DNA of 64,000 nt from a virus. A program made the position numbers and the translations under genes. The notes under the pieces were generated by a model, which saw only the letters and a list, made by a program, of their open reading frames with translations, was not told the DNA's origin and searched no databases. The stretch is from the IMG/VR virus record IMGVR_UViG_3300035661_001697, positions 1 through 64,000 of that record; one strand, 5' to 3'. Below, in pieces: positions 3,230 through 63,091 of this stretch; positions within the stretch are counted from its first letter, which is position 1, and the number at the start of each line of letters is the position of its first letter.

Positions 3230-5608
3230 ATGAAATGGGATTTATTCAATCCACAACCAAAATTTAATTACAAACAAATGTCGACAAAATTAGACGTAGA
3301 ATTGTTGGAGAATCCTTATATACAAGTGGTATGGGAAGACACACCAGAGAACTTCACACAAGAAAGAATCAAATCTGTCAAACAATATTTTCAAAAGAAA
3401 TATAATTCAACCAACACCAATGTCATAACGAAGGTTAAGACCACAGATAACACACAACAAACAATTGATGTATCAGTTAACATCATGGATAAGAATTACC
3501 AAAAAGAACTTATCAAGTCAATGTTGGAGTCTAAAGGTCAAGAACAATATTATGACCAAGTGATGGGAATTGATTCTGCGGTTGAAAATAGACTGACAGC
3601 CAACGATGTTGAAGTTACCGCATTTAAGAAATGGCATATCAAGAAAATTGAGTTTAGTAACTTCTTATCTTATGGTGAGAACCAAGTCATTGACTTTGAC
3701 CAATGTAGTGGTATTACAGTTGTTGAATCAGACCCACCAAATTTTGGAGGTAAAACGGTATTGACTGTGGACTTGTTATTGTTCTTATTCTTTAACACAA
3801 CAACAAAAACACAGAAAGCTGAAGAAATCTTCAATCGATTTACCGAGAAAAACACGGTAGTTGTTAAGGGTGACATTATTATTGACGGTGAAGAGTATAT
3901 CATTGCTCGTAAGATTGAAAGAAAAAAATCTAAAATTGGTGAATGGAATGTTAAAACTGAGTTGGAGTTCTTCAAGAAATTAGATGACGGACAACTTCAG
4001 AACTTTACTGGTGAACAACGTAGAGAGACCGAAAATTTCATGAAAACATCTATTGGTAGTATGGATGACTTCTTGATGACAATTGTAACAACGGCATCAA
4101 ATCTTGAAGATTTGTTGGATGCAAAACCAACTGCTCGTGGGCAGGTGTTAAGTAGGTTTTTGGGGCTTGAGTTCTTAAAAAAGAAAGAAGAGACTGGTAA
4201 AGAAATCTATTCTGAATTCTCAAAGGGTATGTTATCCAATGTGTATAATACCGAATCTTTGAAACAAGATAATGATAGCTCAACGGAACAAATCCAAAAA
4301 CTTAAAACTGAGATTGAAGAATCTGATTTAAAAATTAAAGATGTTGATTTGAGATTACAGAAAGGTCAGGATTACAAAGATAACTTGTTGAAATCAAAGT
4401 ATAGTGACATAGACCAAGAACTTATTGTCTTAAACCCACTTAAATTACAATCAGACATCACAGATTTTGAAGGTTCTTGTGAAACACTTAAAGGTCAAAT
4501 CAAAGAGGTTAAGATTGTGGAACCAAAAGATTTTTATCATGAAGACAAACATGATGAGGTTAAAGAACAATATAATGAAGTTTATAAAGAGACTATTAAA
4601 CTTGATACTGAAATTGAATCAATAAATAAATTAAAATCTGAAGTAGAGGGTGGAATTAAATGTTCTCATTGTGGAATTGAGTTAATGAATGCCGCAATCA
4701 CCAACACAAAAATTACAGAACTTGATGGTTTAATTATGCAAAAAAACACAAAAACCACACTTATGCATGTTTTATCAAGCAAAGAACAAAGTTTTGTACA
4801 ACTTAAAAAAGACTTTGATGAGTATGAAAGAAACAAACTTATTAAAGAAAAATACGAGGTTCAATTGGAATCAAGTGAATTAAAATTAGGTCAAGCAAAA
4901 GACAAACTTAAACGATACAAAGAAGTTCAAGACAAGATTAAGAAGAACAATGAGATTGATACTCAATCGGTTAAAGCCGGATTAAGAATTGATGAATTGA
5001 TTAACGAAAAACGTGGATACGAAAAAGTTCAATCCAACAATCAAAACCAAATTGAAAATTTTTATTCTCGTATTGAAAAAAACAATGGGATAATCTTAAA
5101 GATTGCCGAAGAGTTTGAACGTGAAAAGATTTACAAGATGTATGTTGAGGTATTTGGTAAGAATGGAATTACAAAGGTGATTATGAAAACCATGATGCCG
5201 TTGATTAACTCTGAACTTCAAAGACTTCTTCAGGACTCTTGTTTCTTTAACTTGGAGATTCGTATTAACGACAAGAATGAGGTTGACTTTATCATGATTG
5301 ATAACGGTACAGGGATTGAAAAACCAATGACTGCTGGTTCAGGATATGAAAAGACAATTGGAGCTCTTGCAATCCGAGCGGTATTATCAAAGGTATGTTC
5401 ACTTCCAAAACCTAACATTTCGGTTTACGATGAGACTTGGGGTAAGGTTTCTAATGAAAACTTAGAAATGGTTGGGGACTTCTTTATGAAGTTGAAGGAT
5501 TACTTTGAGAAAATCTTTGTAATATCTCATAACCCGCTTATATCAAATTGGGCGGATAATATTGTTAAAATCACAAAAACCGATAATATTTCAAAAGTTT
5601 CACAATAA
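3230..5608 (+). CDS. 46: Recombination endonuclease ATPase subunit, SbcC/Rad50 type (T4 gp46-like)
   Basis: ABC-type ATPase partner of the gp47 nuclease. From ATG 3230 it has 792 residues. Residues 1-135 are an extra domain absent from T4 gp46 (560 aa). The ATPase head begins near residue 136 (IKKIEFSNFLSYG), with a Walker A of the form N-F-G-G-K-T (about 170-175). Long coiled coils flank a zinc hook CSHC (about 477-480). The signature-like AGSGYEKT and Walker B NISVYDE (about 727-733) follow. An alternative start at 3191 would add 13 residues overlapping the 56-aa gene and is less likely. It ends the operon that begins with cysK. Confidence 0.9.
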   Translation: MKWDLFNPQPKFNYKQMSTKLDVELLENPYIQVVWEDTPENFTQERIKSVKQYFQKKYNSTNTNVITKVKTTDNTQQTIDVSVNIMDKNYQKELIKSMLESKGQEQYYDQVMGIDSAVENRLTANDVEVTAFKKWHIKKIEFSNFLSYGENQVIDFDQCSGITVVESDPPNFGGKTVLTVDLLLFLFFNTTTKTQKAEEIFNRFTEKNTVVVKGDIIIDGEEYIIARKIERKKSKIGEWNVKTELEFFKKLDDGQLQNFTGEQRRETENFMKTSIGSMDDFLMTIVTTASNLEDLLDAKPTARGQVLSRFLGLEFLKKKEETGKEIYSEFSKGMLSNVYNTESLKQDNDSSTEQIQKLKTEIEESDLKIKDVDLRLQKGQDYKDNLLKSKYSDIDQELIVLNPLKLQSDITDFEGSCETLKGQIKEVKIVEPKDFYHEDKHDEVKEQYNEVYKETIKLDTEIESINKLKSEVEGGIKCSHCGIELMNAAITNTKITELDGLIMQKNTKTTLMHVLSSKEQSFVQLKKDFDEYERNKLIKEKYEVQLESSELKLGQAKDKLKRYKEVQDKIKKNNEIDTQSVKAGLRIDELINEKRGYEKVQSNNQNQIENFYSRIEKNNGIILKIAEEFEREKIYKMYVEVFGKNGITKVIMKTMMPLINSELQRLLQDSCFFNLEIRINDKNEVDFIMIDNGTGIEKPMTAGSGYEKTIGALAIRAVLSKVCSLPKPNISVYDETWGKVSNENLEMVGDFFMKLKDYFEKIFVISHNPLISNWADNIVKITKTDNISKVSQ

Positions 5609-6130: not shown

Positions 6131-6658
6131 ATGAAAGAATTATGTTTTAACAAGAAGGGAGTTAACCATAAACCCCTCCAATATTGGACAACTGATAATG
6201 ATACCAAAGTCGCCATTTATCAAGGAAATCGTGGGGAGAATCCTGACCTTGATTTTATTGTAAAGTACAAAGAGAAGGGTAAAAGATTACGTACACCTTC
6301 ACATACCCATTGGATTGTTGATTTGTTGGTTAAGGCGGAATATAATAAAGTTTTAGTATCATCTTATATTGAAGATTTGATTGAGTTTTATGATAATACT
6401 AAACCATTTATTACAATCGAAGAAAGAAATAACTATGAATTAGAGATTCTTGAGTTAATGGAAGATAAATACGGAAGATTAAATGGAAGTGGATATTATA
6501 GTATTAAAACTTTAACTTCTTTGGTAGAGTTGTTCTCAAAGTGTGAAAAACAATCTACAGGGGCGTTCATGTTTAAAAATCTACTCCAATTAGTAAAAGA
6601 ATACTGTGATGGTAAAAAAGATTTTTATCAAATTATTGGATATTCTAAAAGAGTTTAA
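6131..6658 (+). CDS. Unknown protein, second of a two-gene unit
   Basis: 175 residues. The N-terminal part has KVAIYQGNRGENPDLDFIVK followed closely by KYKEKGK. The PD then E-x-(G)-K arrangement superficially resembles a nuclease core, but the spacing is short and the link is speculative. The C-terminal half is helical. Gene order with the preceding protein is tight (3 nt). Confidence 0.65.
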   Translation: MKELCFNKKGVNHKPLQYWTTDNDTKVAIYQGNRGENPDLDFIVKYKEKGKRLRTPSHTHWIVDLLVKAEYNKVLVSSYIEDLIEFYDNTKPFITIEERNNYELEILELMEDKYGRLNGSGYYSIKTLTSLVELFSKCEKQSTGAFMFKNLLQLVKEYCDGKKDFYQIIGYSKRV

Positions 6659-6675: not shown

Positions 6676-7188
6676 ATGAAAAAATATTTGTTAACTGTAT
6701 TCGGTGATTTTGAATCAAAAGATTGTGAAGAGATTGCTAATTGTTTAGAACCAATAGTTGATTCAACACATTTAAAATTTCAATACCGTAGTGGTGTTAT
6801 TATCTTTCATTTTGCATCCGAATTTGAAATATCTGATATTAATGATTTTTTAACATTACTATCTTACGATTTTTATAATTCGTTTATATTATTAGAAAAT
6901 ACTAAAGATGTTTTAGTATTCATGGAAGATGACATGAAACAACATTTATTTGACTTAGATAATGATTCAGAGTGTTCGTTTAAGATTAATATTACTCCTA
7001 ATAATAGGTTTGATACTGATTATGACGATAATGAATTTTATGACAAAGTAACAACTTTATTAAATGAAGTGAAGAAAAATTTACAAGAACCAACTTTAGA
7101 CCAATTGTTGGATAAAATTAATGAACACGGAGTTAAATTGCTTACTCCATATGAAATAGCAATATTAAATAACTATAGTAAAAAATAA
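6676..7188 (+). CDS. Unknown acidic protein with C-terminal LLDKI/LTPYE motif
   Basis: 170 residues. The first 110 look like an alpha/beta domain; a short Asp/Asn-rich linker follows (NNRFDTDYDDNEF). The last 35 residues (LDQLLDKINEHGVKLLTPYE...LNNYSK) closely resemble a short C-terminal segment seen at the end of many Bacteroidota proteins, which supports a Bacteroidota host. It is followed one base later by the sigma-factor gene. Confidence 0.65.
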   Translation: MKKYLLTVFGDFESKDCEEIANCLEPIVDSTHLKFQYRSGVIIFHFASEFEISDINDFLTLLSYDFYNSFILLENTKDVLVFMEDDMKQHLFDLDNDSECSFKINITPNNRFDTDYDDNEFYDKVTTLLNEVKKNLQEPTLDQLLDKINEHGVKLLTPYEIAILNNYSKK

Positions 7189-7189
7189 A

Positions 7190-7987
7190 ATGAAAGAAAA
7201 ATCATCAATTCCAATTAACCAAGAAGAGATTGCAGGATATCTTAAAGATATTAGACGAATTCGAGTTATGACTCCTGACAGAGAAAAAGAACTTGCAAAA
7301 AAAATCTTATCCCCTGATATAACAGAACAAGAAAAGAAAAAAATTCACAAAGAATTATTAGAAGGTAATCTTCGATTTGTAATTACGGTTAGTAAACAAT
7401 ATCAAAATCAAGGGTTAGATTTGTCTGACTTGATTGCAGAAGGAAACTACGGCCTTATGAAGGCGATTGAAAACTTTGATTGGACTAAAGGGTTAAGGTT
7501 TATCTCTTATGCTGTGTGGTGGGTTCGTCAATCTATATTACAATCTTTAAACGAAAATGCAAGAACCATTCGTCTTCCAGTTAATGTGGTTCAAGAGTTA
7601 CATAGAGCAAAAAAAGATTTGGAATCTACAGGAGCGCCATTATCTGATAAATTTGCAACTTTACCATATACAATTAACTTAGATAATCCATTAAATGAAG
7701 ATGGGGATACTTTATTGGACATATTGACTAATCCAAACGCTGAACTTGCTGACGCAGGATTATCAACTGAGGATACTTTAAAAAAGAAACTTATTGAGAT
7801 GATGGATGTTTTAGATAATCGTGAAAGAATAATTATTGAAGATTATTTTGGATTATCAGGAAATAATAGAACATTAGAAGATATCGGGACAGATTTTGGA
7901 CTTACAAAAGAAAGAGTACGTCAAATAAAAGAAAAATCATTAAGAAAATTACGAAACGAATCGTCAACATTGTTTGATTATATATAA
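7190..7987 (+). CDS. RNA polymerase sigma factor, sigma-70 RpoD-like
   Basis: 265 residues, close to the short (about 287 aa) RpoD of Bacteroidota. Region 1.2 is seen at IAGYLKDIRRI; region 2 at LLEGNLRFVITVSKQY through the RpoN-binding-like DLIAEGNYGLMKAI and the -10-reading FISYAVWWVRQSILQ; a shortened region 3; and region 4 with the helix-turn-helix EDIGTDFGLTKERVRQIKEK. The region 3 segment is unlike a cellular RpoD (LSDKFATLPYTINLDNP). It presumably binds host core polymerase and directs it to phage promoters; the recurring TATTTATA boxes in this window are candidates. It ends this plus-strand run. Confidence 0.93.
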   Translation: MKEKSSIPINQEEIAGYLKDIRRIRVMTPDREKELAKKILSPDITEQEKKKIHKELLEGNLRFVITVSKQYQNQGLDLSDLIAEGNYGLMKAIENFDWTKGLRFISYAVWWVRQSILQSLNENARTIRLPVNVVQELHRAKKDLESTGAPLSDKFATLPYTINLDNPLNEDGDTLLDILTNPNAELADAGLSTEDTLKKKLIEMMDVLDNRERIIIEDYFGLSGNNRTLEDIGTDFGLTKERVRQIKEKSLRKLRNESSTLFDYI

Positions 7988-7993
7988 AGGGTG

Positions 7994-8001
7994 TATTTAT
8001 A
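7994..8001 (+). promoter_or_regulatory. Class 2 box TATTTATA
   Basis: TATTTATA directly after the sigma-factor stop and about 50 nt before the first gene of the lysis-like block (8052). One of a recurring set in this window; the promoter role is inferred. Confidence 0.45.
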
Positions 8002-8051
8002 AAGTATATTAATTATATTTAGAGTAATAAAAAATAAAAAAATAAAGAATT

Positions 8052-8333
8052 ATGAAAAATTTTATACAAAAAAATTTTACAACTATTGTCTTGGTAATTA
8101 CATTATTGTCCTTCTTTAAAGGATGTGGGGATGGTAGAGAACTTACTAAAATTAGAAAAGAAATTCAAATAATTAAAGATTCTACTTATACCAAACAAGA
8201 AATGAATGTAGAATTAACTATTATGGGTTTAGAATCTGAAAAAAGAATGATTCAGGCTACGGACCGAAAATTATTAGATGTTCATCGTCAAACTCAAATT
8301 GACCAGGAAATTAAAAAGTTAAAGTCAAATTAA
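8052..8333 (+). CDS. Small membrane-anchored coiled-coil protein (spanin-like topology)
   Basis: 93 residues: a charged N-terminus, one hydrophobic helix (about 10-23) ending in FFKGCGD, then a helical, charged domain. The cysteine could be a weak lipobox (F-K-G-C, atypical) or the helix may be a simple anchor. Topology resembles an inner-membrane spanin. It is the first gene of a block that also holds an amidase and an overlapping spanin-like pair. Confidence 0.6.
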   Translation: MKNFIQKNFTTIVLVITLLSFFKGCGDGRELTKIRKEIQIIKDSTYTKQEMNVELTIMGLESEKRMIQATDRKLLDVHRQTQIDQEIKKLKSN

Positions 8334-8334
8334 A

Positions 8335-9042
8335 ATGAATTGGATACGAAAAAATTTTAAAAAACTAATTTATATTGCATTTTTGGTTCCAATTTTTGCC
8401 GTTGCAATAGTTTCAATATCTCACGTAACTAAATGGTATGGATTATCAAATCCTTTAAGTTGGGCAATATATCTATCAATTGGTGTGGAGTTTGCGGCAT
8501 TATCCGCAGTTGCTGCCATATCGGCAAAGATGGGTAAAAAAGTTTATATACCATTTGGAATTGTGACTTTAATTCAGTTTATCGGTAATGTTTTTTTTGC
8601 ATATCAATACATTGACGTTGATTTACAAGAGTTTAAAGATTGGGTTGAATTAGTTGACCCAGTTGTTAGTTATCTTGGTGTAGAATCAGGAGATTTAATT
8701 GGTCATAAAAGATTTTTGGCTTTATTTGGGGGAGGAATGTTACCAATAATTTCGTTATCTTTTTTACATATGTTAGTTAAGTTTGAAGAAGAAGAAAAAA
8801 TTGAAGTTAATAACACCAACGTAAATGTTGATGAATTAAGTATTGAGGCAGGTAAAAAAGAAGCTGAAATTGAAAAAGAAAATGAAAACAAAAAATTTAC
8901 ACCAACACAAGAACAGTTGGAAATGATTGAAAAAATATTAACAGATAAATCTGAAAAACAACAAATTGAAAATATCTCACAAGAAGAATTAACGGAAGAC
9001 CCTGAAATTAAAAGATTGAGTTACACAAGGAGAAATGTTTGA
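8335..9042 (+). CDS. Polytopic membrane protein with acidic tail
   Basis: 235 residues with four predicted transmembrane helices (about 11-32, 41-63, 70-92 and 119-143) and a long hydrophilic C-terminal tail rich in Glu, Lys and Asn. It starts one base after the previous stop and overlaps the amidase start by 8 nt. A holin or antiholin role is possible from position, but there is no sequence signature for it. Confidence 0.6.
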   Translation: MNWIRKNFKKLIYIAFLVPIFAVAIVSISHVTKWYGLSNPLSWAIYLSIGVEFAALSAVAAISAKMGKKVYIPFGIVTLIQFIGNVFFAYQYIDVDLQEFKDWVELVDPVVSYLGVESGDLIGHKRFLALFGGGMLPIISLSFLHMLVKFEEEEKIEVNNTNVNVDELSIEAGKKEAEIEKENENKKFTPTQEQLEMIEKILTDKSEKQQIENISQEELTEDPEIKRLSYTRRNV

Positions 9043-9643
9043 TATTGAAAAATACGGAAATTTTAAAATAACAGGTAAACAAAAAAAGAAAAAACAAATA
9101 ATTTTATGCCATACATCAAGGGAGATTGAGGAATACTTAGTCTCCCTTAAATTTAGATACAATTCTAAGTATGATAAAATACCTAACTACGTAATTGCCA
9201 AAAACGGTAAAATCATTAAGTTACTTCCTGACGAAGGACACACAAATTTTTTCACAAAAGACAATATTAATCGAAACTCAATTATTGTTTGTTTAGAAAA
9301 TTTAGGTTGGTTAGAAAAGAAACCATTAACTAACTATCACATTAACTGGAAAGGAAGTATTTATAAACAGGAAGTTTATGAAAAAAAATGGAGAGATTTC
9401 TTTTTTTGGGAACCGTACTCTGAGGAACAAGTTAAATCTGCCGCAGAATTATGTTTACATTTAACAGAAACATTCAAGATTAAAAGGAATTGTATAGGTC
9501 ATAATACTAAGTTTGAAGGAACTGAACATTTTGAGGGGATTGTCTCAAAAAGTAATTTTGACGGAAAGTACACAGATTTAAATCCATCTTTTGATTTTAA
9601 AAACTTTATTAAATTAATAGAAAATGGGAAATATACACAATGA
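9035..9643 (+). CDS. N-acetylmuramoyl-L-alanine amidase-like endolysin (Amidase_2/PGRP fold)
   Basis: 202 residues. The pattern follows Amidase_2: a first zinc-ligand region IILCHTS (about residues 22-28), the Y-V-I-A-K-N-G-K-I strand, the segment NRNSIIVCLENLG corresponding to the family's N-x-x-S-I-G-I-E, then a helix and the second histidine in CIGHNTKFEG, with a final D-x-N-P-x-F-D-F that parallels D-P-G-P-x-F-x-W. Ligand spacing is acceptable, though several family residues differ. It would cut the peptide from the glycan in host peptidoglycan at lysis. No signal peptide, so release needs a holin. It overlaps genes on both sides. Confidence 0.72.
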   Translation: MFDIEKYGNFKITGKQKKKKQIILCHTSREIEEYLVSLKFRYNSKYDKIPNYVIAKNGKIIKLLPDEGHTNFFTKDNINRNSIIVCLENLGWLEKKPLTNYHINWKGSIYKQEVYEKKWRDFFFWEPYSEEQVKSAAELCLHLTETFKIKRNCIGHNTKFEGTEHFEGIVSKSNFDGKYTDLNPSFDFKNFIKLIENGKYTQ

Positions 9644-30693: not shown

Positions 30694-31728
30694 ATGGTTA
30701 ACATCTTAATAACTGAAAGACAACTTGCTTTAATTACTAAAAACCAATCATTAAAAAATATTGATTATATTAACGAAGCAACAGGATGGAATACTGCACT
30801 CGATTTTATTGGTATTGTTGACCCCTCAGGTATTTCAGATTTTGTTAATGCGATGTCTTATTTTTATCAGGGAGACCGTTTATTTGGAATGTTGAGTTTA
30901 ATATCCGCCATCCCATATGCTGGTGATGTTGTGGCTAAACCTGTAATGGGAGCTTTAAAAATGGGTAGTACTGCCACTAAAGAATTAAAAGGGGCTATGA
31001 GATTAGCGGACTTAGGAAAAACCGCTGAAGCAAGTGTTGTTTTAGCTAAATTAGCGGAAAAACCTGGAGTTGTTGGTACATTTTTACAAAAAGCTCAAAA
31101 TTGGGCGCCAAAAGTGGCTTCTAAAGTTAACATGTTACCAGGAGGATTACTTAAAGGATTTAAAGAAACAATATTAGATTATTTAAAATTATTTGAAAAC
31201 GCTGCGGTTAAAAGTACTAAATTTCAAAAAACGGCAGGACATTTAGCCGCAAATTTATCTAAAGTTGCAAAACCTGCGGAAAGTATTAAAGCGTTAAAAG
31301 ACATATTAAAAAACGAAAAAATTTTAAAATCATTACCTAAGAAAGGCCTTTTGGCTCGAGTCTTTATAGGCGGAGCGTGGCGATTACAAAATAATATGGC
31401 TGGTAGAATTTTAATGAGAAGAACAAAGTGGTGGTTAGGTTTATTAGATTATATGGGTTTTGGAAATTTTGTTGGACCTGAAGAACTTGAAAATTTAGTT
31501 GGTAGTGAAACATTAATGAGACAAATGAATGAATATAATCAAACCGACGCAGCTATACAAAATGCTGAATACGATTTTCCTGGAAATGTTGAACAAGTAC
31601 AAACACAACCAACCGTTACTAATCCAAGTGTGGGAATGTTAACCCCATCAACTGGAGACCCAATACAAGGATGGTTATCAAGTATATTTAGCTCAAATGT
31701 TGGTAAAGCCGCATTATTGGCTATTTAA
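30694..31728 (+). CDS. Tagged protein with hydrophobic Gly/Pro-rich domain
   Basis: 344 residues. The N-terminus MVNILITERQLALIT is the I-T-E-x-Q tag. Residues about 30-90 form a hydrophobic region DFIGIVDPSGISDFVNAMSY through LSLISAIPYAGDVVAKPVMG; the D-P-S-G and I-P-Y-A-G-D pattern resembles linker domains found before toxin domains in polymorphic toxins. The middle is helical and Ala/Lys-rich. It ends with an Asn/Pro linker and a hydrophobic tail. It may be a virion-carried membrane-acting or internal protein. Confidence 0.65.
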   Translation: MVNILITERQLALITKNQSLKNIDYINEATGWNTALDFIGIVDPSGISDFVNAMSYFYQGDRLFGMLSLISAIPYAGDVVAKPVMGALKMGSTATKELKGAMRLADLGKTAEASVVLAKLAEKPGVVGTFLQKAQNWAPKVASKVNMLPGGLLKGFKETILDYLKLFENAAVKSTKFQKTAGHLAANLSKVAKPAESIKALKDILKNEKILKSLPKKGLLARVFIGGAWRLQNNMAGRILMRRTKWWLGLLDYMGFGNFVGPEELENLVGSETLMRQMNEYNQTDAAIQNAEYDFPGNVEQVQTQPTVTNPSVGMLTPSTGDPIQGWLSSIFSSNVGKAALLAI

Positions 31729-32230: not shown

Positions 32231-33628
32231 ATGAAAAATTTACTCAAAGAGACAGGATTACAAGACATTAACAATTTAGCTAAAAGATATCCAAAATCTG
32301 AAATATATTTTCATCAAGATTTGGATGGAGTGACAACCGCAATTGCAATGAAAAAATACCTTGAAGACAATGGTATTGATGTGGTAGGGGCTCACATAAT
32401 CCAATACGGTGACAAAGAATTCGCAGTTAAAAAGAACGACGCACAGGGAGATGTGATGCCGGTTCTTGTGGACTTTGCTCACGGTAAGCCAATGTTTGTA
32501 ATTCATACGGACCACCACGATAAACAAGTTGGGGTTGAAAAAAACACATCAACACAATTTAGAGGGGCTCGTTCAAATGTAGAAACAATATCTCAAGTAG
32601 TGTCTCCAAAAGACTTGTTTCCGTCTTCAGATATCTTATTAATTAATACTGTTGACTCAGCAGATTACGCTAAATATAATATCACACCTGATGAAGTTGT
32701 TAATTATATTTACCGTTTGGATAAAGAAAAACCACTCCAACAAAACAAAATGTTATTAGGATTGGTTATTAATAAATTGTTGTTAGCGTTTAAAAACAAA
32801 CCAGGTTTTTTAGAAGGATTGGTTATGGATTCTGAACCATCTTTAATGTCTATTTTAAATAACATTAAAAATTGGATGAAAAAAACAAATGCCGCAAATC
32901 CAGAAGAATTACAAAAAAATGCTGAGGGATATAAAGATAATATGAAAAACTTTCCAAGAGTTAGTGATAGTATTATTTTTCAATATGGTGGTGGTAGTAT
33001 GTTTAAACCTGGTTCTTATGATAGATACACACCATTTAGAAATAATCCTGACGCCGACTTTTTAATTATGGCTTGGCCTATGGGATTGGTTCAAGCTTCT
33101 TGTAACCCTTTTAAGAAAGACAGAGAACTTAAAGGTGTTAATCTTGGTGAAATAGCTCAAGAAGTATTATCAAAATGGGAGGGACAACTAAAACAAAGAA
33201 CAATTCCTTTATCAACTATTAAATGGGTTAGTGAAACTTCTGTAGGTCCTGAAAGTATTGGATTTACATTCAACGATTTTGAAGCACTATATGGCGATAA
33301 ATTTACAACTATGGAAGGTGGTGAAAAAGTTTTAGACCATATTCAAGATATGATGGAAACATCATTCAAAGATTTAACCGAAGAACATAAAGATATGTTA
33401 GATAAAATTGGAATCAACGCTTGGGATTTAATTCAATCAAATTCAGGTGGACACAAATGTATTACAAACATTTCTGGTTTAAATTATTTAGGTAGAGGTA
33501 AAAGACCACCTCAAGGACAATATAAGTATGATTCTGAGAAAGATGATTCACCTTCAGTTAAGTTTACAAAGATGATTGCGAATGAGTTTGAAAGAAAACT
33601 TAAAGAAAAAATCGCAGAATCAAAGTAA
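32231..33628 (+). CDS. DHH-family phosphoesterase
   Basis: 465 residues. The catalytic layout of the DHH superfamily is visible: FHQDLDGVTTAIAMKKYL (D-x-D), PVLVDFAHGKPMFVIHTDHHD (DHH motif), then LLINTVDSADY. Family members include RecJ exonuclease and oligoribonuclease/nanoRNase enzymes. The C-terminal half is not obviously a DHHA1 domain, so substrate is unknown; a nuclease role in phage DNA or nanoRNA turnover is likely. The N-terminus MKNLLKETG has an L-K-E. It converges with a DUF192 gene and overlaps it by 9 nt. Confidence 0.8.
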   Translation: MKNLLKETGLQDINNLAKRYPKSEIYFHQDLDGVTTAIAMKKYLEDNGIDVVGAHIIQYGDKEFAVKKNDAQGDVMPVLVDFAHGKPMFVIHTDHHDKQVGVEKNTSTQFRGARSNVETISQVVSPKDLFPSSDILLINTVDSADYAKYNITPDEVVNYIYRLDKEKPLQQNKMLLGLVINKLLLAFKNKPGFLEGLVMDSEPSLMSILNNIKNWMKKTNAANPEELQKNAEGYKDNMKNFPRVSDSIIFQYGGGSMFKPGSYDRYTPFRNNPDADFLIMAWPMGLVQASCNPFKKDRELKGVNLGEIAQEVLSKWEGQLKQRTIPLSTIKWVSETSVGPESIGFTFNDFEALYGDKFTTMEGGEKVLDHIQDMMETSFKDLTEEHKDMLDKIGINAWDLIQSNSGGHKCITNISGLNYLGRGKRPPQGQYKYDSEKDDSPSVKFTKMIANEFERKLKEKIAESK

Positions 33629-43372: not shown

Positions 43373-43945
43373 ATGAGAATAATAATCACAGAAGAACAAT
43401 TCAACAGATTCAACAGAAGTAGCAATGTTTTACAGAATGGGATTATTAAATATCTAAACCTTTATATTTCAGAGGGTAAAAGAACTTTCAGAACAAAAAA
43501 CAATAATTTTGGGAATCTTAGTGAAGATTGGTGTGTTGATAATGTTCATTCAATAACCGCAATTTATTACTTTGAAGACGGCAAGTTTGATTCGGGACAT
43601 TTAATTGTAACTAACAATTTTGTTAATAAAATTAGTGAAATATTCAGTGTTAAAAAATCATATGTTTTACATGTTATTGAAGAATGGTATGATGAGGTTA
43701 TGGTTCCAAAATTTGAAGAGTTGGTTAATGAATCGGGGTTAAATATTGATGAAATTGGTTCTGTTGAAAAAGAATCCGGTTGTATACCTGAATTTGTTAA
43801 ACCTGAGGGAATAACAGATGACGAAATGATTGATTATATTGCTGACCACACTTTATTCAAAAGACAAGATGTAATAAAACAAATTGAGGGTGGTAGAGAC
43901 CTTGATATTTTTTATTTTGATATTAAACGTAGGGAAAACAATTGA
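43373..43945 (+). CDS. Tagged unknown protein, 190 aa
   Basis: N-terminal tag MRIIITEEQFNRFN. A mixed alpha/beta domain follows with acidic stretches (EEWYDEVMVPKFEELVNESG). C-terminal DDEMIDYIADHTLFKRQDVI looks like a small helical end. Three nt from the next tagged gene. Confidence 0.65.
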   Translation: MRIIITEEQFNRFNRSSNVLQNGIIKYLNLYISEGKRTFRTKNNNFGNLSEDWCVDNVHSITAIYYFEDGKFDSGHLIVTNNFVNKISEIFSVKKSYVLHVIEEWYDEVMVPKFEELVNESGLNIDEIGSVEKESGCIPEFVKPEGITDDEMIDYIADHTLFKRQDVIKQIEGGRDLDIFYFDIKRRENN

Positions 43946-54060: not shown

Positions 54061-54155
54061 TTTTACATTGTTTATATAAAATAATAGTAAGAATTTATAA
54101 CTTAAACAATGTATTATTCATAATAATAATAAAAAATGTTTTTTCTTTTAACTGG

Positions 54156-54163
54156 TATTTATT
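54156..54163 (+). promoter_or_regulatory. Class 2 box TATTTATT, 5 nt from ATG
   Basis: TATTTATT, ATTAT, ATG (54169). Favours the 54169 start over a longer reading from 54136. Confidence 0.5.
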
Positions 54164-54168
54164 ATTAT

Positions 54169-56082
54169 ATGTCAGAGGAACACAAATTATCACCATTCTT
54201 TAAAAGAAGGATTGACCATCATAAGTTTGAAAAACTGATGAGGAAAGGTATTATCTATATATATAATGAATCAAATTCTCTTGAAGAATTTAAATTTAAG
54301 TTAGTTAAAGCAACATTGAAAAATTATATTCATTATAAATATAATATTAATATTGAAGATTTACCTCACGATAATGTGGATAATTTTATTGATTATATGG
54401 TTGATACTTATGAGCCCTTACTTAAGACGTATTATTATAATGAAAGAAAAAATAGTGGTAATATAAATGAAAATTATAGTCCAGCTGGTAAAGAAATAAT
54501 TCCAAACGAAATTGTTATACATAAATCTAATCCTAAGTTTAGAGACAAGATTATAGAACAAGGATTAAAAGTTCGTGCTGGTGAATGTTATAAAATATAT
54601 GCAGGATATGGAACAAAATGTAAACCTGCAATATTTGCAACCAACTCAACAAATAAGAGGTCGTGGTTTGATTCTACTTATGATGATGATGTTTGGGAAA
54701 TTGATACAACAATGATGCCCGAAATCAAATGGTATAAGGATAGACACTACGAATCAAGTAAAAAACATATAGTAACCTTTCAAGACATACCTAAAGAGGC
54801 AATCAAACTTATTTATGAAGGTTCAGGTAAAGATGGGGGAATAATGGAATCAGTTGACAAATCTGAAGACAAAAAACTTAAGTTGTTAACAAAAATGATT
54901 CATCAGTTTTTTGATGATGTTAGTTTTATTGTTATTAAAAAATATGAAAATAAACCAATGATAATAGTTTATTTTGATAACGATGAAGCAGGTAGGCAAG
55001 GAGAGACTTATTTTGCGGAACAAATACAACGTAAAATATATGAATATACAGGTATTAAACTTATTCCGTATTGGCACACTATTCAGTATAACACTGATGC
55101 AGATTTTCGTTTAGATGCCATTAAACTAAAGAATATGGATTTGATACCTCAGTACGAAAATGAAAGAAATGATATAAACGAATCTGAAGACAAAAAACTT
55201 AAATTGTTGACAAAAATTATGGACAATATTATTTTTCCTGAATATAAAAATATTATTTGTGGTTATGATGTAAAAAATGATGAGGCTTTTAATGAACCTG
55301 TAGTTAATGTTACTTTTATTGGTGGGTATGGAACAAAACTTTGGCCTACCACACAAGGAATTAAAAAAATGTATAGTGATGTTTTAAATAAAATTTGGAA
55401 TACTATTTACAATTACATTAATGTTCCAGTTGGCGTTACTATGGAAACAACACCCAAATGTGATGAACAAGAAAACATTTATCTTAGAGAATCAGTTGAC
55501 AAATCTGAAGACAAAAAACTTAAGTTTGTGACAAAAATGATTCATGAGTTTTTTGATGAGGTTAGTTTTATTAAAATTAAAAAATATGGAAATAAACCAT
55601 TGATAAGAGTTTATTTTGATAACGATGAAGAAGCGGCTAATGAAGAGACTTATTTTGCAGAACAAATACAAGATAAAATTTATAAATATACAGGTATTAA
55701 ACTTATCCCGTATTGGCACATGATTCAGTATAACACTGATGCAGATTTTCGTTTGGACGCCATTAAACTAAAATACGATAACTTGGGAAATGTTATAAAC
55801 GAATCAGAAGAAAAACAACCTAAGTATCTTAACGCAATAAAAAATCTTATTGAATCATTCAAAGACAAAGATTGTGTTTGCGATATTGACGTGTTGTTTG
55901 AAGACGATACGTATTGTATTTATTTGAAATTTGGTGTTGAAGACTTAAATGATAAATTTCTTAGTAATGGCGCACATCATTATGTGTCAAAATTAAAAAA
56001 TAATGTTAAAGACACCATTAAAAATTATCTATCAATAGATAATTTATATGTTGGGTCTTACGGAACAAAAAGATGCGGTTAA
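54169..56082 (+). CDS. Multi-domain repeat protein with ART-like N-terminal domain
   Basis: 637 residues from ATG 54169. Residues about 110-220 (EIVIHKSNPKFRDKIIEQGL, CYKIYAGYGTK, PAIFATNSTNKRSW) resemble the fold of ADP-ribosyltransferase/KptA-type proteins (H-K-S, then Y and aromatic positions); this is tentative. Residues about 225-637 are four tandem repeats beginning with S-E-D-K-K-L-K-(L/F) or S-E-E-K-Q-P-K-Y. Repeats 1 and 3 are nearly identical. Each carries FIVIKKYENKPMIIVYFDND and an ending such as YNTDADFRLDAIKLK. Unusual architecture; role unknown. Confidence 0.7.
   Translation: MSEEHKLSPFFKRRIDHHKFEKLMRKGIIYIYNESNSLEEFKFKLVKATLKNYIHYKYNINIEDLPHDNVDNFIDYMVDTYEPLLKTYYYNERKNSGNINENYSPAGKEIIPNEIVIHKSNPKFRDKIIEQGLKVRAGECYKIYAGYGTKCKPAIFATNSTNKRSWFDSTYDDDVWEIDTTMMPEIKWYKDRHYESSKKHIVTFQDIPKEAIKLIYEGSGKDGGIMESVDKSEDKKLKLLTKMIHQFFDDVSFIVIKKYENKPMIIVYFDNDEAGRQGETYFAEQIQRKIYEYTGIKLIPYWHTIQYNTDADFRLDAIKLKNMDLIPQYENERNDINESEDKKLKLLTKIMDNIIFPEYKNIICGYDVKNDEAFNEPVVNVTFIGGYGTKLWPTTQGIKKMYSDVLNKIWNTIYNYINVPVGVTMETTPKCDEQENIYLRESVDKSEDKKLKFVTKMIHEFFDEVSFIKIKKYGNKPLIRVYFDNDEEAANEETYFAEQIQDKIYKYTGIKLIPYWHMIQYNTDADFRLDAIKLKYDNLGNVINESEEKQPKYLNAIKNLIESFKDKDCVCDIDVLFEDDTYCIYLKFGVEDLNDKFLSNGAHHYVSKLKNNVKDTIKNYLSIDNLYVGSYGTKRCG
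54844..56076 (+). repeat. Four tandem internal protein repeats
   Basis: Copy A about 54844-55136, copy B 55177-55484, copy C 55485-55780, copy D 55798-56076. A and C are near identical at DNA level (long matching blocks such as AACTTAAGTT and GATGCAGATTTTCG), indicating a recent duplication; B and D are diverged. Confidence 0.75.
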
Positions 56083-56139: not shown

Positions 56140-56210
56140 ATAATATGTTTTATATAGACAAATAAAAAAACAAAGTATTTTAATTTATGGTATTAATTTA
56201 AAAAATTTAT

Positions 56211-56933
56211 ATGAAAAAAATAATAAGATTAACTGAACAAGATTTGGCAACATTACTTAAAGGTATTGTTAATTTGGCAACAGGTATGGCGACAAACAAC
56301 ACTAATAAAAAAGAAACAACTTCTAATGATAAGTCAACAAATACTACGTCAACAAATACTACGTCAACAAATACTACTTCAACAAATAGTGATTCAAAAG
56401 AAACTAAAAATACGGGTAAAAAATTACCCCCAAATATTCAAAAATTAATTGATAAATTAAAAACATCTTATGGGATTAACATTACTCAACAACATATTAA
56501 CAAAGAATATGAACAAGAAGGAGATATTCGATTAGATGCTGGCGGCGTTAATTCAGAAGCCCTAAAACAAATAAAAAAATTAATAGAAGATTGTAAAAAA
56601 GCAAACCTTAAAGTTCGGTTTCCCAATGGTATTGTTTCTGATTATAGAAGTTATAACACCCAAGTAGATAATTTTGGAACCAAAGCTAAAACAAGAGGTA
56701 TTGATGATACACAAGCTTACAACACCCTACCTGGATTTTCTCAACATCATACAGGTAAGGCTTTTGATATATTTAGTACTGAGACTGATTGGTGGAATAC
56801 AAACTCAGGGGTCAAAACTTGGGTGGCCAACAATTGTGGAAAATATGGGTTTGATGTAACTTATAAAACTAAGGGAAAAGTAAGACAGGCAGAACCTTGG
56901 CATTTATTTTTTAAGGGAGGCCAGACTAAATAA
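56211..56933 (+). CDS. Tagged D-Ala-D-Ala carboxypeptidase (VanY/M15)
   Basis: 240 residues. N-terminal tag MKKIIRLTEQDLATLLKGIV, then a Thr/Asn/Ser linker with the 15-nt repeat, then a VanY-type domain: SDYRSYNTQ, FSQHHTGKAFDI (S-x-H-x-x-G-x-A-x-D) and AEPWHLF. It would cut stem peptides in host peptidoglycan. There is no signal peptide, so activity outside the cell requires packaging or lysis. Confidence 0.85.
   Translation: MKKIIRLTEQDLATLLKGIVNLATGMATNNTNKKETTSNDKSTNTTSTNTTSTNTTSTNSDSKETKNTGKKLPPNIQKLIDKLKTSYGINITQQHINKEYEQEGDIRLDAGGVNSEALKQIKKLIEDCKKANLKVRFPNGIVSDYRSYNTQVDNFGTKAKTRGIDDTQAYNTLPGFSQHHTGKAFDIFSTETDWWNTNSGVKTWVANNCGKYGFDVTYKTKGKVRQAEPWHLFFKGGQTK
56334..56389 (+). repeat. 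15-bp tandem repeat in the linker
   Basis: Unit TCAACAAATACTACG repeated 3.7 times in frame, coding for S-T-N-T-T. An easily expanding or contracting linker. Confidence 0.85.
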
Positions 56934-56948
56934 TACTATACACATAAA

Positions 56949-57908
56949 ATGACAAACAAATTAGGTGAACCCGATAGTAAAATAATCATTAAATTGTTTA
57001 AATTATTAAATGAGGAGAAAAAAAAGAATAAAACAAGAGAATCCCTTTTAAATGCAATAAGAAATCTTTCAATATATTTGAGTATTCCTAAAGACCACGA
57101 ACGATATCTTTTGGAGTTATATGTTTTAAACTTTAAAGAAGACGGAGACTACTCAAATTTAACAAAAGATAATTTTATTGACCCTAGACATCAAAAAGGT
57201 AAAGTTATTTCTAATTCAAATGCCCGTTTATATACCATAGCACAATTACCATTTAAGGGTTCAAATTTAACCGCATATTGGACCATAGACCCAAAAGGTG
57301 TTCCATACTATAAAGTATCATCATACGAATGGTACCCTATATACATATACAAAAATGATAAGTGGTATCAGTCAACAAATTCTTATTCTAGTTCTACAGG
57401 TAGACAAATTAGTAATTCTAATCCCGTTGATTGGAATAATGATTTAGAAACTGTATATACGTTGACCGCGGATGAAATGAAGATGATAGAAAGAGGAAAT
57501 AGTCATGAAGAAGTTATGAAGAATAAACGGTCTAAATTAAAAAGTATTGAGCCTGATTTGACAAAAAGACAAAAAACCGCAAAGATTGGTAATGCGTATC
57601 ACGACAGAAATCTAACACCCACAAATATAAAATTTAAGGTTAATTCAATAGATATAGACGGTGATAAATCTATTGTAAATGTCGATGTATACGACGTAGT
57701 TAAAAGACAATCTGGTAGACAACAAGATACTCCCGAAAACTATTTAAATAATGAGATACCTAACCTTACAACAACTAATGTGGAAGACGCAATTAAAATT
57801 AAAATGAGACGAGAATTAATGGATTATATTGGTACAAGATTTAAAGATAATCTTGAAAATCCTGTAGGTGCAAAAATAGAGTTTAAATTTAACCATTTAA
57901 AAAAATAG
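56949..57908 (+). CDS. Unknown protein, 319 aa
   Basis: Charged N-terminal helices, a central aromatic stretch (TAYWTIDPKGVPYYKVSSYE), EVMKNKRSKLKSIEPDLTKR basic helices and a strand-rich end (IKFKVNSIDIDGDKSIVNVD). It follows the VanY-like gene by 15 nt. Function unknown. Confidence 0.6.
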   Translation: MTNKLGEPDSKIIIKLFKLLNEEKKKNKTRESLLNAIRNLSIYLSIPKDHERYLLELYVLNFKEDGDYSNLTKDNFIDPRHQKGKVISNSNARLYTIAQLPFKGSNLTAYWTIDPKGVPYYKVSSYEWYPIYIYKNDKWYQSTNSYSSSTGRQISNSNPVDWNNDLETVYTLTADEMKMIERGNSHEEVMKNKRSKLKSIEPDLTKRQKTAKIGNAYHDRNLTPTNIKFKVNSIDIDGDKSIVNVDVYDVVKRQSGRQQDTPENYLNNEIPNLTTTNVEDAIKIKMRRELMDYIGTRFKDNLENPVGAKIEFKFNHLKK

Positions 57909-57943
57909 GTTATTGATTGAACAAATACACAAAATTTTTTTTG

Positions 57944-57951
57944 TATATTTG
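57944..57951 (+). promoter_or_regulatory. Class 1 -7 box TATATTTG, 4 nt from ATG
   Basis: TATATTTG, TGTT, ATG (57956). The start is fixed by this arrangement; no good -33 element is visible. Confidence 0.6.
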
Positions 57952-57955
57952 TGTT

Positions 57956-58252
57956 ATGAAAAAACTACTAACATCTTTATTTTTACAAATGGTTTTTAAA
58001 AATGTTAACACTACTAAAAAACTTATGGACATTATATTTGATGAAACAAAATCGCCTAAAGTAGTTAAAACTAAAATCGTTAAAACTCCTGTAAAATTTA
58101 AAAAAGAATTTGTAATAAATCAAACTGAACCTGTTAATAGTAAAAAACAAGAATTAATAGACGCAATACAATTTCTTAAAAATAAAACTACCAAAACAAA
58201 AGTTGATAAAGATAAAATTCAAATGTTAGAGGTAATTCTTAAATCAGTGTAG
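57956..58252 (+). CDS. Small basic protein, 98 aa
   Basis: MKKLLTSLFLQMVFKNVNTT, then Lys/Val-rich repeats (KVVKTKIVKTPVKFK) and a helical end. Charged and low complexity; unknown function. Confidence 0.55.
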   Translation: MKKLLTSLFLQMVFKNVNTTKKLMDIIFDETKSPKVVKTKIVKTPVKFKKEFVINQTEPVNSKKQELIDAIQFLKNKTTKTKVDKDKIQMLEVILKSV

Positions 58253-58291
58253 AGGAATTGAACTTTAATATAATGTTTTAGTTTTATTTTA

Positions 58292-58299
58292 TATTTATT
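58292..58299 (+). promoter_or_regulatory. Class 2 box TATTTATT
   Basis: 12 nt before the tagged gene at 58312. Confidence 0.5.
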
Positions 58300-58311
58300 A
58301 TAAAATTGTTT

Positions 58312-59058
58312 ATGAAAAGAATTGTAAGGTTAACTGAACAAGACTTAACTGGGTTACTTAAAGGGATTGTTGACTTGGCTTTAGGTGGTACTGCTAATAG
58401 TAATAAAAAAGAACCAACTTCTAATGATGACTCAAAAGAACCAACTGATAACAATGACCCAAAAAAAGATGAAAAAGAAACTGAAAAAGATGTTAAGGAA
58501 CTAACTGATAAAGTTACAAACGATAAGGAATATTCAATTATTAAGTCAGACACTTATAAAGGTAAAAATGTTCATGTATTATTTGGTGGGTCACATACTT
58601 CAGACTATAGCAAAATTAAAAATTATGTTAAATATTTAGAACCATACAGTAGTAAAGCAATAATTGTTATTACGCATCATAAGAACACACTTGAAAACGT
58701 TAGTAAGTACGTTAAAGATAAGTTTGGTGGAGTTGTGACCTCAATCGCAGGATTTTCTCAAGGAGGTAAAGAAACTTGGAAACACGCCGGTAATTCATCA
58801 TTAAAATTAGTTGGATTAATTGACCCATCAACTTATAAAACTGATGTAACATTTGGGGCAAACACCTATTTAGTTTGTGACCCTAATAATTGGGGGTCTA
58901 GCGGGTTTTATGGTCAAGTTAAGGATAAACTAAAATGGTATTGTAGTAAAAAAAATGAATCAAAGTATTCAGGGCATGTTGAATGTACAAAAGGTAAAGC
59001 TCACATGAATTTAGACATATTAAAATATTTTTATTTACAATATGGAAATAAAATTTAA
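58312..59058 (+). CDS. Tagged alpha/beta-hydrolase-like protein
   Basis: 248 residues. Tag MKRIVRLTEQDLTGLLKGIV, then a charged low-complexity linker (residues about 30-75), then a domain with the nucleophile elbow G-F-S-Q-G-G (near residue 152), LIDPS as a possible acid site and a final KAHMNLD as a candidate histidine. It fits an alpha/beta hydrolase, probably an esterase or amidase; substrate unknown. The tag DNA is nearly identical to that of the GH19 gene at 59091. Confidence 0.75.
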   Translation: MKRIVRLTEQDLTGLLKGIVDLALGGTANSNKKEPTSNDDSKEPTDNNDPKKDEKETEKDVKELTDKVTNDKEYSIIKSDTYKGKNVHVLFGGSHTSDYSKIKNYVKYLEPYSSKAIIVITHHKNTLENVSKYVKDKFGGVVTSIAGFSQGGKETWKHAGNSSLKLVGLIDPSTYKTDVTFGANTYLVCDPNNWGSSGFYGQVKDKLKWYCSKKNESKYSGHVECTKGKAHMNLDILKYFYLQYGNKI

Positions 59059-59063
59059 CATGA

Positions 59064-59071
59064 TATTTATA
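59064..59071 (+). promoter_or_regulatory. Class 2 box TATTTATA
   Basis: 19 nt before the GH19-like gene. Confidence 0.5.
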
Positions 59072-59090
59072 GTTTAATAATGTTTTTATT

Positions 59091-59915
59091 ATGAAAAGAA
59101 TTGTAAGGTTAACTGAACAAGACTTAACTGGGTTACTTAAAGGGATTGTTGACTTGGTTTTAGGTGGTACTGATAATAATAAAAAAGAACCAACTTCTAC
59201 TGATGAAAAAGAACCAACATCTAAAGATGAAAAAAAAACAACTTCTACTGATGATAAAAAATTGGATACTCCTAACTATAATGGAGATACAGGTAAAGTT
59301 TTTTTAAAGGGTAATTTTGACTCAACACAAAAAGCTAATATTGAGTTAATGATTAAATACATGAATAAATCAGGAATCAAAGACCCATTGGCTCAAATTG
59401 GCGTTTTATCTGTAATATCTAAAGAATCAAATTTTAGACCAAAATCTGAAGTATCTTATGCCAATACATCAAATTCAAGAATTAGAAAAATTTTTGGGTC
59501 TAGAGTTTCAAAATATTCAGATAGTGAAATGGACTCTCTTAAAAAAAACCCTGAAAAATTCTTCAACGTAGTGTATGCAAAGACAGTTGGAAACCAAGGT
59601 GGTGGTGATGGATGGAAATACCGAGGTAGAGGATTTAACCAACTAACAGGTAAAAAAAATTACGAAAAATATGGTAATATGATTGGTAGAAACTTAGTAG
59701 GAAATCCTGACTTAGTTAACGACCCAACAGTTGCTGCGGAAATTGCTGTTGCATTTTTTACTAAAGGTAAACCAGGTAATACATTTCCTAAATTTAAAAA
59801 TAAAACTGAAGCCGCTACTCATTTTGCTGATATAAATGCTGGTGGAGGAGTTAGTTCTCATAGGGCAAATGCGATTGCGGCAGTTGACAAATTTGACATT
59901 AAAGATATTACTTAG
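59091..59915 (+). CDS. Tagged GH19 chitinase/lysozyme-like enzyme
   Basis: 274 residues. The tag is almost identical to that of 58312, followed by a Thr/Lys/Glu linker with EPTS-type repeats. GH19 landmarks: catalytic Glu in VISKESNFRP, KYRGRGFNQLTGKKNYEKYG and a Trp/Gly-rich core (NQGGGDGWKY). GH19 enzymes cut chitin or peptidoglycan glycan; in phages they usually act on murein. With 56211 and 58312 it forms a trio of tagged wall enzymes. Confidence 0.88.
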   Translation: MKRIVRLTEQDLTGLLKGIVDLVLGGTDNNKKEPTSTDEKEPTSKDEKKTTSTDDKKLDTPNYNGDTGKVFLKGNFDSTQKANIELMIKYMNKSGIKDPLAQIGVLSVISKESNFRPKSEVSYANTSNSRIRKIFGSRVSKYSDSEMDSLKKNPEKFFNVVYAKTVGNQGGGDGWKYRGRGFNQLTGKKNYEKYGNMIGRNLVGNPDLVNDPTVAAEIAVAFFTKGKPGNTFPKFKNKTEAATHFADINAGGGVSSHRANAIAAVDKFDIKDIT

Positions 59916-59976
59916 ATTATCATTTAATAAAAAATTAAAAATAACCAAAAAGTTTTTTATAACATAATAAAATTCA

Positions 59977-60572: not shown

Positions 60573-60911
60573 GTGAAAGAACTAATTAGGAATATATTAA
60601 AAGAAGAAACAGAAGAAAATGAACAAAAAGTTATGAATTTTCTTTTACGAAGATATCGTACTTCTGAAAGAGATTTTGGCGAAGAAGGACACCCAAGGAT
60701 GTTTAAACAAATTACATTTGAAATTGATGAGGACTTCTACGTTATTAATAATTTTCAAAACAAAACAGAACAAGTCCATAAAATATTTAATATGTTAGTC
60801 GATAACGATGTTATTAAAAAACCAATAGAGTTTTATGGAACAACTCTTGACCCATATAGACAAAAAGTTATTAGAACAATAAGGAAATTTTTAAATGACA
60901 AAATATCATAA
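60573..60911 (+). CDS. Tag-type protein, 112 aa
   Basis: GTG start; MKELIRNILKEETEENEQ: an I-L-K-E-E start typical of a second tag form. Basic RRYRTSERDF and a strand-rich end. Function unknown. Confidence 0.6.
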   Translation: MKELIRNILKEETEENEQKVMNFLLRRYRTSERDFGEEGHPRMFKQITFEIDEDFYVINNFQNKTEQVHKIFNMLVDNDVIKKPIEFYGTTLDPYRQKVIRTIRKFLNDKIS

Positions 60912-60917
60912 TTTACT

Positions 60918-61223
60918 ATGGATTATATTATTACACCTGAACAGTTAGACAAAATCACTAAACCTTTTTTTGATAAAGAATTTAAAGACGCTAAGTGGGG
61001 TGAACATGCCCAAGGGACAGATGATGTATGGTATGGGCTTATTAATCAGGACGATGTTCTGTTAGTTGGTCATCCCTCCTTTAATGTTGATAATTACTAC
61101 ACTAATGGTCACCACTTTGAAAACATGTGGCATTATTTTAGTGTTAACCCTCAACAGTTTAATCAATCAATTGGTAGATACATTAAGAAAAAATATGGTT
61201 GTGAATTTAAACAGATATACTAA
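60918..61223 (+). CDS. Tag-like protein, 101 aa
   Basis: MDYIITPEQLDKITKPFFDK has the tag pattern with T-P in place of T-E. Then an aromatic beta domain (WYGLINQDDVLLVGHPSFNV). 6 nt from the previous gene. Confidence 0.6.
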   Translation: MDYIITPEQLDKITKPFFDKEFKDAKWGEHAQGTDDVWYGLINQDDVLLVGHPSFNVDNYYTNGHHFENMWHYFSVNPQQFNQSIGRYIKKKYGCEFKQIY

Positions 61224-61928: not shown

Positions 61929-62246
61929 TTAATCGGCTCCAAAGTCAGAATTATAGGATACAACATCAATACCAATTTTGGTTTCAACCCAATCAGATAT
62001 AATACTAAGGGCATTATCAGGATGAAGGGAAAACAAAGAACATACATCACCAGCCAAAATGGAACTAATAAAACAATCTCCATCCATATCACATGATATT
62101 AGGAATTGACGACTACCAACATCTGAAACTAAAGGGTGGATATAAAAATTATAAGCGACAGAAGTCTTTAATAATTTTAGACCTTTCATATCAAGATACT
62201 TGTATATGAACGACTCTAATTGTGATTCGGAGATAATGATTTTCAT
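61929..62246 (-). CDS. Tagged protein, 105 aa
   Basis: MKIIISESQLESFIYKYLDM: the tag with I-S-E-x-Q. A small alpha/beta domain with SRQFLISCDMDGDCFISS and DNALSIISDWVETKIG. Similar in plan to the two genes upstream of it (62249 and 62777). Located last in their minus-strand run. Confidence 0.6.
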   Translation of the reverse strand: MKIIISESQLESFIYKYLDMKGLKLLKTSVAYNFYIHPLVSDVGSRQFLISCDMDGDCFISSILAGDVCSLFSLHPDNALSIISDWVETKIGIDVVSYNSDFGAD

Positions 62247-62248
62247 AT

Positions 62249-62563
62249 TTAATTAGTCACGTATTTTATTTTAACATTATACATATTCTCAAACCAATTC
62301 TTAATGAATTCTTTAATTTGTTCCATATCAAGGGGAAACCAAATGGAAAACTTATCCAAGAAATTTTTATCAATATACAATCTACCATTATTACTATCAT
62401 ATTCCATAACAATATCATCTATTGAATAAGGGTCAGGTATAGGATTATTATAGTCAATAACAATAAGCCTATCAATTTCAATAACATTAAACTGATTAAG
62501 TAAATCATTAAGATATTCAGTCATAAACTTACGTAACTGAGGATGAGTAACAAGGTAATTCAT
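62249..62563 (-). CDS. Tag-like protein, paralog 1
   Basis: MNYLVTHPQLRKFMTEYLND with T-H-P-Q instead of T-E-x-Q. Domain DIVMEYDSNNGRLYIDKNFL, then KFSIWFPLDMEQ. 104 residues; paralog of 62777-63091 by near-identical sequence. Confidence 0.65.
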   Translation of the reverse strand: MNYLVTHPQLRKFMTEYLNDLLNQFNVIEIDRLIVIDYNNPIPDPYSIDDIVMEYDSNNGRLYIDKNFLDKFSIWFPLDMEQIKEFIKNWFENMYNVKIKYVTN

Positions 62564-62776: not shown

Positions 62777-63091
62777 TTAATTATCAACGTATTTTATTTT
62801 AACGTTATATACACTCTCAAACCAATCCTTAATGAATAATTTTGATTGTTCCATATCAAGGGGAAACCAAATGGAAAACTTATCCAAGAAATTTTTATCA
62901 ATATATAATCTACCATCATCACTATCATATTCCATAGCAACATCATCAATTGAATACTCGTCAGGTTCATCGTAGTTATAGTTAATAACAATAAAACTAT
63001 CAGGGTCACTAACACTACAATTATTAAGAAAATCATTAAGATATTCAATCATAAACTTACGTAACTGAGGATGAGTAACAAGGTAATTCAT
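62777..63091 (-). CDS. Tag-like protein, paralog 2
   Basis: MNYLVTHPQLRKFMIEYLND; differs from paralog 1 mainly in residues 22-50. Domain DVAMEYDSDDGRLYIDKNFL. 104 residues. Confidence 0.65.
   Translation of the reverse strand: MNYLVTHPQLRKFMIEYLNDFLNNCSVSDPDSFIVINYNYDEPDEYSIDDVAMEYDSDDGRLYIDKNFLDKFSIWFPLDMEQSKLFIKDWFESVYNVKIKYVDN

Follow-up and report, generated by a model that had tools for sequence, protein, structure and literature searches.

A tag shared by three predicted wall-active enzymes of an uncultured virus may act as a T4-like capsid-targeting propeptide with exchangeable cargo

Why would three enzymes with unrelated catalytic domains begin with the same short peptide? The question is raised by the first 64,000 nucleotides of the IMG/VR virus record IMGVR_UViG_3300035661_001697 (the window), where open reading frames (ORFs) at 56211, 58312, and 59091 have in common about 25 N-terminal residues, MK(K/R)I(I/V)RLTEQDL..LLKGIV(N/D)L, here called the tag. 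In each, the tag is followed by a low-complexity linker rich in Thr, Ser, Asn, and Lys and then by a different catalytic domain. The initial annotation had described this arrangement correctly and read it as a modular set of virion-carried enzymes for entry through the wall or capsule. The explanation that we favor, with modest confidence, is a capsid-targeting propeptide system that works like that of phage T4 and carries exchangeable cargo, of which peptidoglycan hydrolases would be one class.

We searched the whole record, a linear virus fragment of 66.5 kb, with the tag and obtained exactly three matches, the ORFs above, all on the forward strand. The gene at 56211 to 56933 encodes a VanY/M15 protein of 240 residues, with the tag at residues 1 to 25, a linker reaching to about residue 70, and the VanY domain at residues 113 to 236 (Pfam E=3.2e-21). 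Its residues of metal-ligand type, H180, D186, E228, and H231, are invariant among relatives, and its nearest solved structures are DacB (4d0y) and LdcB (4ox5). The GH19 protein (274 residues, 59091 to 59915) has the tag at residues 1 to 25, a linker to about residue 60, and the GH19 domain at about residues 67 to 270 (Pfam E=2.8e-9); Glu112 and Glu120, of catalytic type, are invariant across ten sequences, and the nearest solved structure is the endolysin 4ok7. The third protein (248 residues, 58312 to 59058) starts at a true ATG at 58312, a TTG being present at 58306, and has the tag at residues 1 to 25, a linker to about residue 60, and a domain spanning about residues 66 to 248 that matched no Pfam family above the cutoff. 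It contains GFSQGG with Ser149, Asp171 or Asp190, and His231, and GFSQGG, the Asp, and the His are invariant in five sequences. An AlphaFold2 model of moderate quality (mean predicted local distance difference test score of 69) matches alpha/beta hydrolases, and on these three grounds we assign the protein as an alpha/beta hydrolase. All three enzymes look functional, since each keeps its active-site-type residues unchanged across relatives.

The tags are MKKIIRLTE↓QDLATLLKGIVNLATG for the VanY protein (56211 to 56285), MKRIVRLTE↓QDLTGLLKGIVDLALG for the alpha/beta hydrolase (58312 to 58386), and MKRIVRLTE↓QDLTGLLKGIVDLVLG for the GH19 protein (59091 to 59165), where arrows, here and below, follow a match to the motif [IL]xE. 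Over these first 75 nucleotides, the alpha/beta hydrolase and GH19 genes are identical at 74 of 75 positions, in agreement with the near identity noted earlier, while the VanY tag matches them at 58/75 and 57/75, respectively. The tag DNA plus about 27 nucleotides upstream is taken in by a 143-nucleotide repeat.

Related contigs show that swapping runs both ways, with bodies changing behind tags and tags changing before bodies. The sister contig L124 is about 94 to 97% identical to the window beside the exchanged pieces. It lacks the VanY cassette (56147 to 56929), whose flanks are 94 to 96% identical, and the alpha/beta hydrolase body (58468 to 59065), both with clean DNA junctions. Its single GH19 gene is preceded by the flank that stands upstream of the alpha/beta hydrolase gene in the window. 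The alpha/beta hydrolase body (58491 to 59070) is 93% identical in DNA to positions 4000 to 4579 of L193; there it forms a fusion with a protein similar to the window ORF at 32231. The GH19 body (59244 to 59937) is 98.6% identical over 695 nucleotides to positions 6157 to 6851 of L134, in which it stands behind a different, unrelated tag, with the junction inside the linker. This tag and its linker, about 70 residues together, are common to two adjacent genes (L134, 5911 to 7711) whose bodies are GH19 and a phosphatase-like (DSPc/PTP) domain, an independent repeat of the shared-tag, different-domain pattern of the window. In four further contigs (L126 to L129), GH19 stands behind a third tag, MKKLIINESEKREIRSLYNLFE↓. 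The junctions in L124, L193, and L134 bear out the claim of recent domain exchange behind a fixed tag. A pattern scan found no relatives of the VanY protein, which were reached instead via relatives of the alpha/beta hydrolase, and phage records searched for distant nucleotide similarity to the region gave no match. The phosphatase-like domain of L134 also ends an M23-peptidoglycan-binding protein in L193.

The initial annotation missed that the tag belongs to a much larger N-terminal family. We scanned with a degenerate DNA pattern that covered tag residues 1 to 12, with residues 13 to 22 outside the pattern, and found at least 120 stretches in IMG/VR and one match only in 257 Gb of prokaryote genomes; the family is essentially confined to phages. 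Its consensus is MKKIIRLTESDLxRIVKRVIxE↓, a short hydrophobic stretch plus a basic amphipathic helix. When the bodies of 175 tagged proteins among the matches listed were clustered, they fell into 128 unrelated groups, nearly all without a recognized wall domain; body representatives gave only four Pfam families (PG_binding_1 twice, DUF6576, UPF0227, and abhydrolase). Conservation runs at about 3 bits per column up to residue 22 and is below 0.4 from residue 24. [IL]xE closes the tag at residue 22 in 148 of 174 sequences, and a further 17 have it at the end of a variant lengthened by four residues (165/174 with the strict end), the rest being mostly V-x-E or T/M-containing variants. The 148 strict tags are encoded by 146 distinct 66-nucleotide sequences with varied synonymous codons; since the residues stay the same, selection acts on the tag peptide. 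A tblastn search of cultured phages with the tag gave no match at E<=10, and exact tag strings had no match in the literature. We tried a 445-residue tagged protein (L047, G013) as an endolysin, which its own sequence did not support; where the tagged set matched PHROG endolysins, the matches fit peptidoglycan-binding domains.

The [IL]-x-E with which the tag closes is the motif at which the T4 prohead protease cleaves. In a head-gene survey of 21 tag-bearing contigs, the S77 prohead protease (gp21) was present in 17, including 5/5 of the closest relatives, and gp23 in 16. Four contigs (G007, G009, G015, and G016) were considered as counterexamples; they lack the S77 protease and carry no S78 protease, but gp23, portal, and terminase are missing from them as well, and they are taken as fragments. 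In tag-bearing phages, gp23 itself reads FLINE↓A or HLINE↓A, and the protease N terminus mostly shows [IL]xE↓S (LIRE↓S, FIME↓S, ILKE↓S). The T4 controls agree, with FLTE↓A in gp23 and MKTYQEFIAE↓A in ipII/ipIII. Among proteins adjoining gp23 and terminase, the N termini vary between phages while the boundary is constant: KVLSE↓Q, RVLNE↓Q, and QVLKE↓Q precede an RYMFFSNLEQM body, and IKE↓, LKE↓, LSE↓, and LNE↓ precede API(D/G)YEGPERM or the like. For homologous bodies with different N termini, [ILV]xE occurred at both boundaries in 29 of 136 pairs versus 5.8±2.2 after shuffling, the pairs not being independent.

Many tags hold two such sites. Among 1,430 proteins outside the tag family, a set that by the strict N-terminal pattern used as a filter retains a few late-start or variant members, we counted two [IL]xE matches within the first 33 residues against a shuffled control. 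Spacings of 8, 13, and 14 were seen 55, 40, and 23 times versus 7.9, 5.9, and 5.6 times in the control (z=17.6 at spacing 8 and 13.3 at 13 to 14), and no such excess was seen in residues 41 to 72 of the same proteins. One architecture recurs in visibly different tags, such as MNLQE↓NIQRIRSMMGVISE↓, MNLQE↓HIRRVLRE↓, MKKLIINE↓SEKREIRSLYNLFE↓, and MKIIISE↓SQHKRLFE↓. A crAss-like control phage had no N-terminal [IL]xE enrichment, while the controls LR756508 and immuto had some. Immuto, a cultured Flavobacterium phage (L201) with a T4-type head, is without this tag family and has N-terminal [IL]xE pairs of its own; at 1675 to 2139 and 7631 to 8931, shared N termini, MADNFNLRSFLTE↓NKLTKNAQLLKE↓ and MENFDLKKFLVE↓NKLTTNSKILKE↓, stand beside head genes. 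It is a possible laboratory model.

Wall enzymes of the relatives are found among head genes. VanY, peptidoglycan-binding, and alpha/beta hydrolase domains form one protein of 531 residues between terminase and portal in L194 and L195, and the same combination adjoins gp23 in L196. M23-peptidoglycan-binding-GH19 proteins lie just upstream of the terminase neighborhood in L130 to L133 and L135, and most N termini of the relatives' wall enzymes end in [IL]xE, L130 being an exception. The untagged early cytoplasmic homologs that had been named as evidence to the contrary were not found among close homologs: most of these begin with a different tag, and the fusions that have none are encoded immediately upstream of the terminase neighborhood. 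Carriage in the virion, as first proposed, is likely but inferred, as is a role in entry. The idea of a modular set holds strongly as far as exchangeable modules are concerned, but the tag is not specific to wall enzymes, and entry through a capsule has no support, no capsule depolymerase being present. The earlier interpretation was partly right and too narrow; most likely, the tag marks head cargo in general, with wall enzymes as one class.

By analogy with T4 and giant phages, the tag would direct any protein behind it into the prohead core during head assembly. For tags of the general family, the S77 protease would then cut after [IL]-x-E at the tag end, and the freed cargo would leave alongside the DNA in the following infection; recombination within tag and linker would exchange the bodies. 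In the phage studied here, the cargo would be three peptidoglycan-active or esterase-type enzymes that, delivered with the genome, could open or remodel the wall locally.

Several observations weigh against this scheme. The three tags of the window lack the terminal [IL]xE, with V-D-L at residues 20 to 22; LTE9 is their sole remaining match, and the T-E-x-D there might be nothing more than a helix cap. Across the entire window, a simple count gives no significant excess of N-terminal [IL]xE (z=1.0). There are no head genes on the window fragment, and therefore the protease of this phage is deduced from relatives. The tag has no resemblance to T4 MKTYQEFIAE beyond the motif, so it can be said to work like the T4-type capsid-targeting sequence (CTS) and not to be a member by descent. 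Despite its T4-type head, Mel-JY01 has neither such tags nor a significant N-terminal [IL]xE or double-site enrichment, so not every T4-headed phage follows the two-site grammar. The window variants may be cleaved only after LTE9 or be targeted without cleavage. In T4, an IPIII carrying Asp at position 10 is still targeted although it is not processed (PMC9026906); lost cutting therefore need not mean lost targeting.

The three proteins could instead be an endolysin set, made late and acting from inside, with the N-terminal helix regulatory or membrane associating. Endolysins commonly have M15 and GH19 domains, the GH19 protein strongly matches PHROG endolysins (phrog_181, E=1.5e-36), and the proteins show no apparent signal peptide, their tag being of basic, amphipathic character. 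We nevertheless consider this unlikely, as the tag occurs on more than 120 bodies, mostly not wall enzymes, and relatives encode these enzymes among head genes. No holin was recognized beside the three genes, and an untagged Amidase_2 protein (9035 to 9643, forward strand, E=4.2e-12) is a candidate alternative lysis enzyme.

Slightly less probable still is that the tag docks its proteins elsewhere, at the baseplate, tail, inner membrane, or another assembly, and is no prohead-protease substrate, [IL]xE being a mere helix pattern. The window variants without a terminal site fit this, as does the reading of the tag as strand, helix cap, and amphipathic helix (a helix at residues 9 to 23 was modeled at very low confidence). 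It does not account for the abrupt end of conservation at E22, the boundary common to unrelated tags, the spacing of paired sites, or the co-occurrence with the S77 protease. It is very improbable that the common start is no more than a recombination hot spot, whose homologous 5' ends spread genes while the peptide has no function: the tag and linker DNA of the window clearly serve as exchange homology, as the 74/75 identity and the cassettes bounded by tags show, but the diverse codons of the strict tags largely refute this reading.

Storing a wall-degrading activity in the head has precedent in the T7 gp16-type internal head protein, which has a muralytic domain and is ejected with the DNA; gp16 is, however, an unrelated protein of a podovirus internal core and has no targeting tag. 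Phage endolysins share the GH19 and M15 catalytic domains, but the proteins described here are tagged, co-occur as exchangeable cargo, and have relatives among head genes. In T4, one conserved CTS loads diverse internal proteins (PMC3012670). Like our tag, the CTS of IPI, IPII, IPIII, and Alt is a short N-terminal propeptide on otherwise unrelated proteins, ends in [IL]-x-E, and belongs to gp21/gp23-type heads (PMC9026906, PMC3012670). The present tags differ in having no sequence similarity to it, about 22 residues versus 10 to 19, often two [IL]xE sites, more than 100 body types, and a cargo that includes wall enzymes, with packaging proposed from sequence. The head ejection proteins of the giant phages SPN3US and phiKZ likewise have propeptides and N termini processed by the prohead protease, and SPN3US gp53 and gp54 have an identical 15-residue start before diverged bodies (PMC5694885). 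Their motif is of AXE/SXE type, unlike here, and their propeptides are mostly much longer and on few proteins.

More tentatively, at somewhat less than even chances, a sizable group of uncultured T4-headed phages may use a general head-loading code, in which several families of propeptides of the form [IL]xE-amphipathic helix-[IL]xE stand on up to a fifth of the genes and the virion carries dozens of exchangeable cargo proteins into the host. In G013, 37 of 178 predicted genes have such short propeptide-type N termini. If so, the cargo would include peptidoglycan hydrolases, an esterase-like hydrolase, and possibly phosphatases, and the first 22 or so residues would assign hundreds of orphan phage proteins to a head-loaded, host-injected class. 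The reach of the T4 CTS, a handful of internal proteins, would widen to a broad cargo system that takes in wall-degrading enzymes, and the tags would be natural means of loading proteins into phage heads.

Elsewhere in the window, weaker relatives of the N-terminal family occur at 30694, about 35303, 43373, about 43948, 60573, and, on the reverse strand, 61929. The ORF at 60573 to 60911 (forward, GTG start) has another tag type, MKELIRNILKE↓E, with tandem relatives in L193, where four genes in a row (6969 to 8566) start M(K/R)xLIRHILKE↓E. Short tag types are seen by N-terminal pattern in the ORFs at 61929 to 62246 (reverse; MKIIISE↓SQLESFIYKYLD) and 43373 to 43945 (forward; MRIIITE↓EQF). Short ORFs at 62249 to 62563 and 62777 to 63091 (reverse) and 60918 to 61223 begin MNYLVTHPQL or MDYIITPEQL, apparently a degenerate form of the short tag MKYIITESQL with the glutamate gone. 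Upstream of the VanY gene, an ORF of 648 residues (54136 to 56082) is built from internal repeats of about 321 bp and 642 bp (284-nucleotide copies 89% identical); its length differs among the window and the sister contigs L124 and L125 (648, 534, and 304 residues), and hence the repeat number changes quickly. The window also carries DNA methyltransferases and host-like metabolic genes, namely, a pyridoxal phosphate-dependent enzyme, glutamine synthetase, sugar epimerase, DnaJ, thioredoxin, and glutaredoxin.

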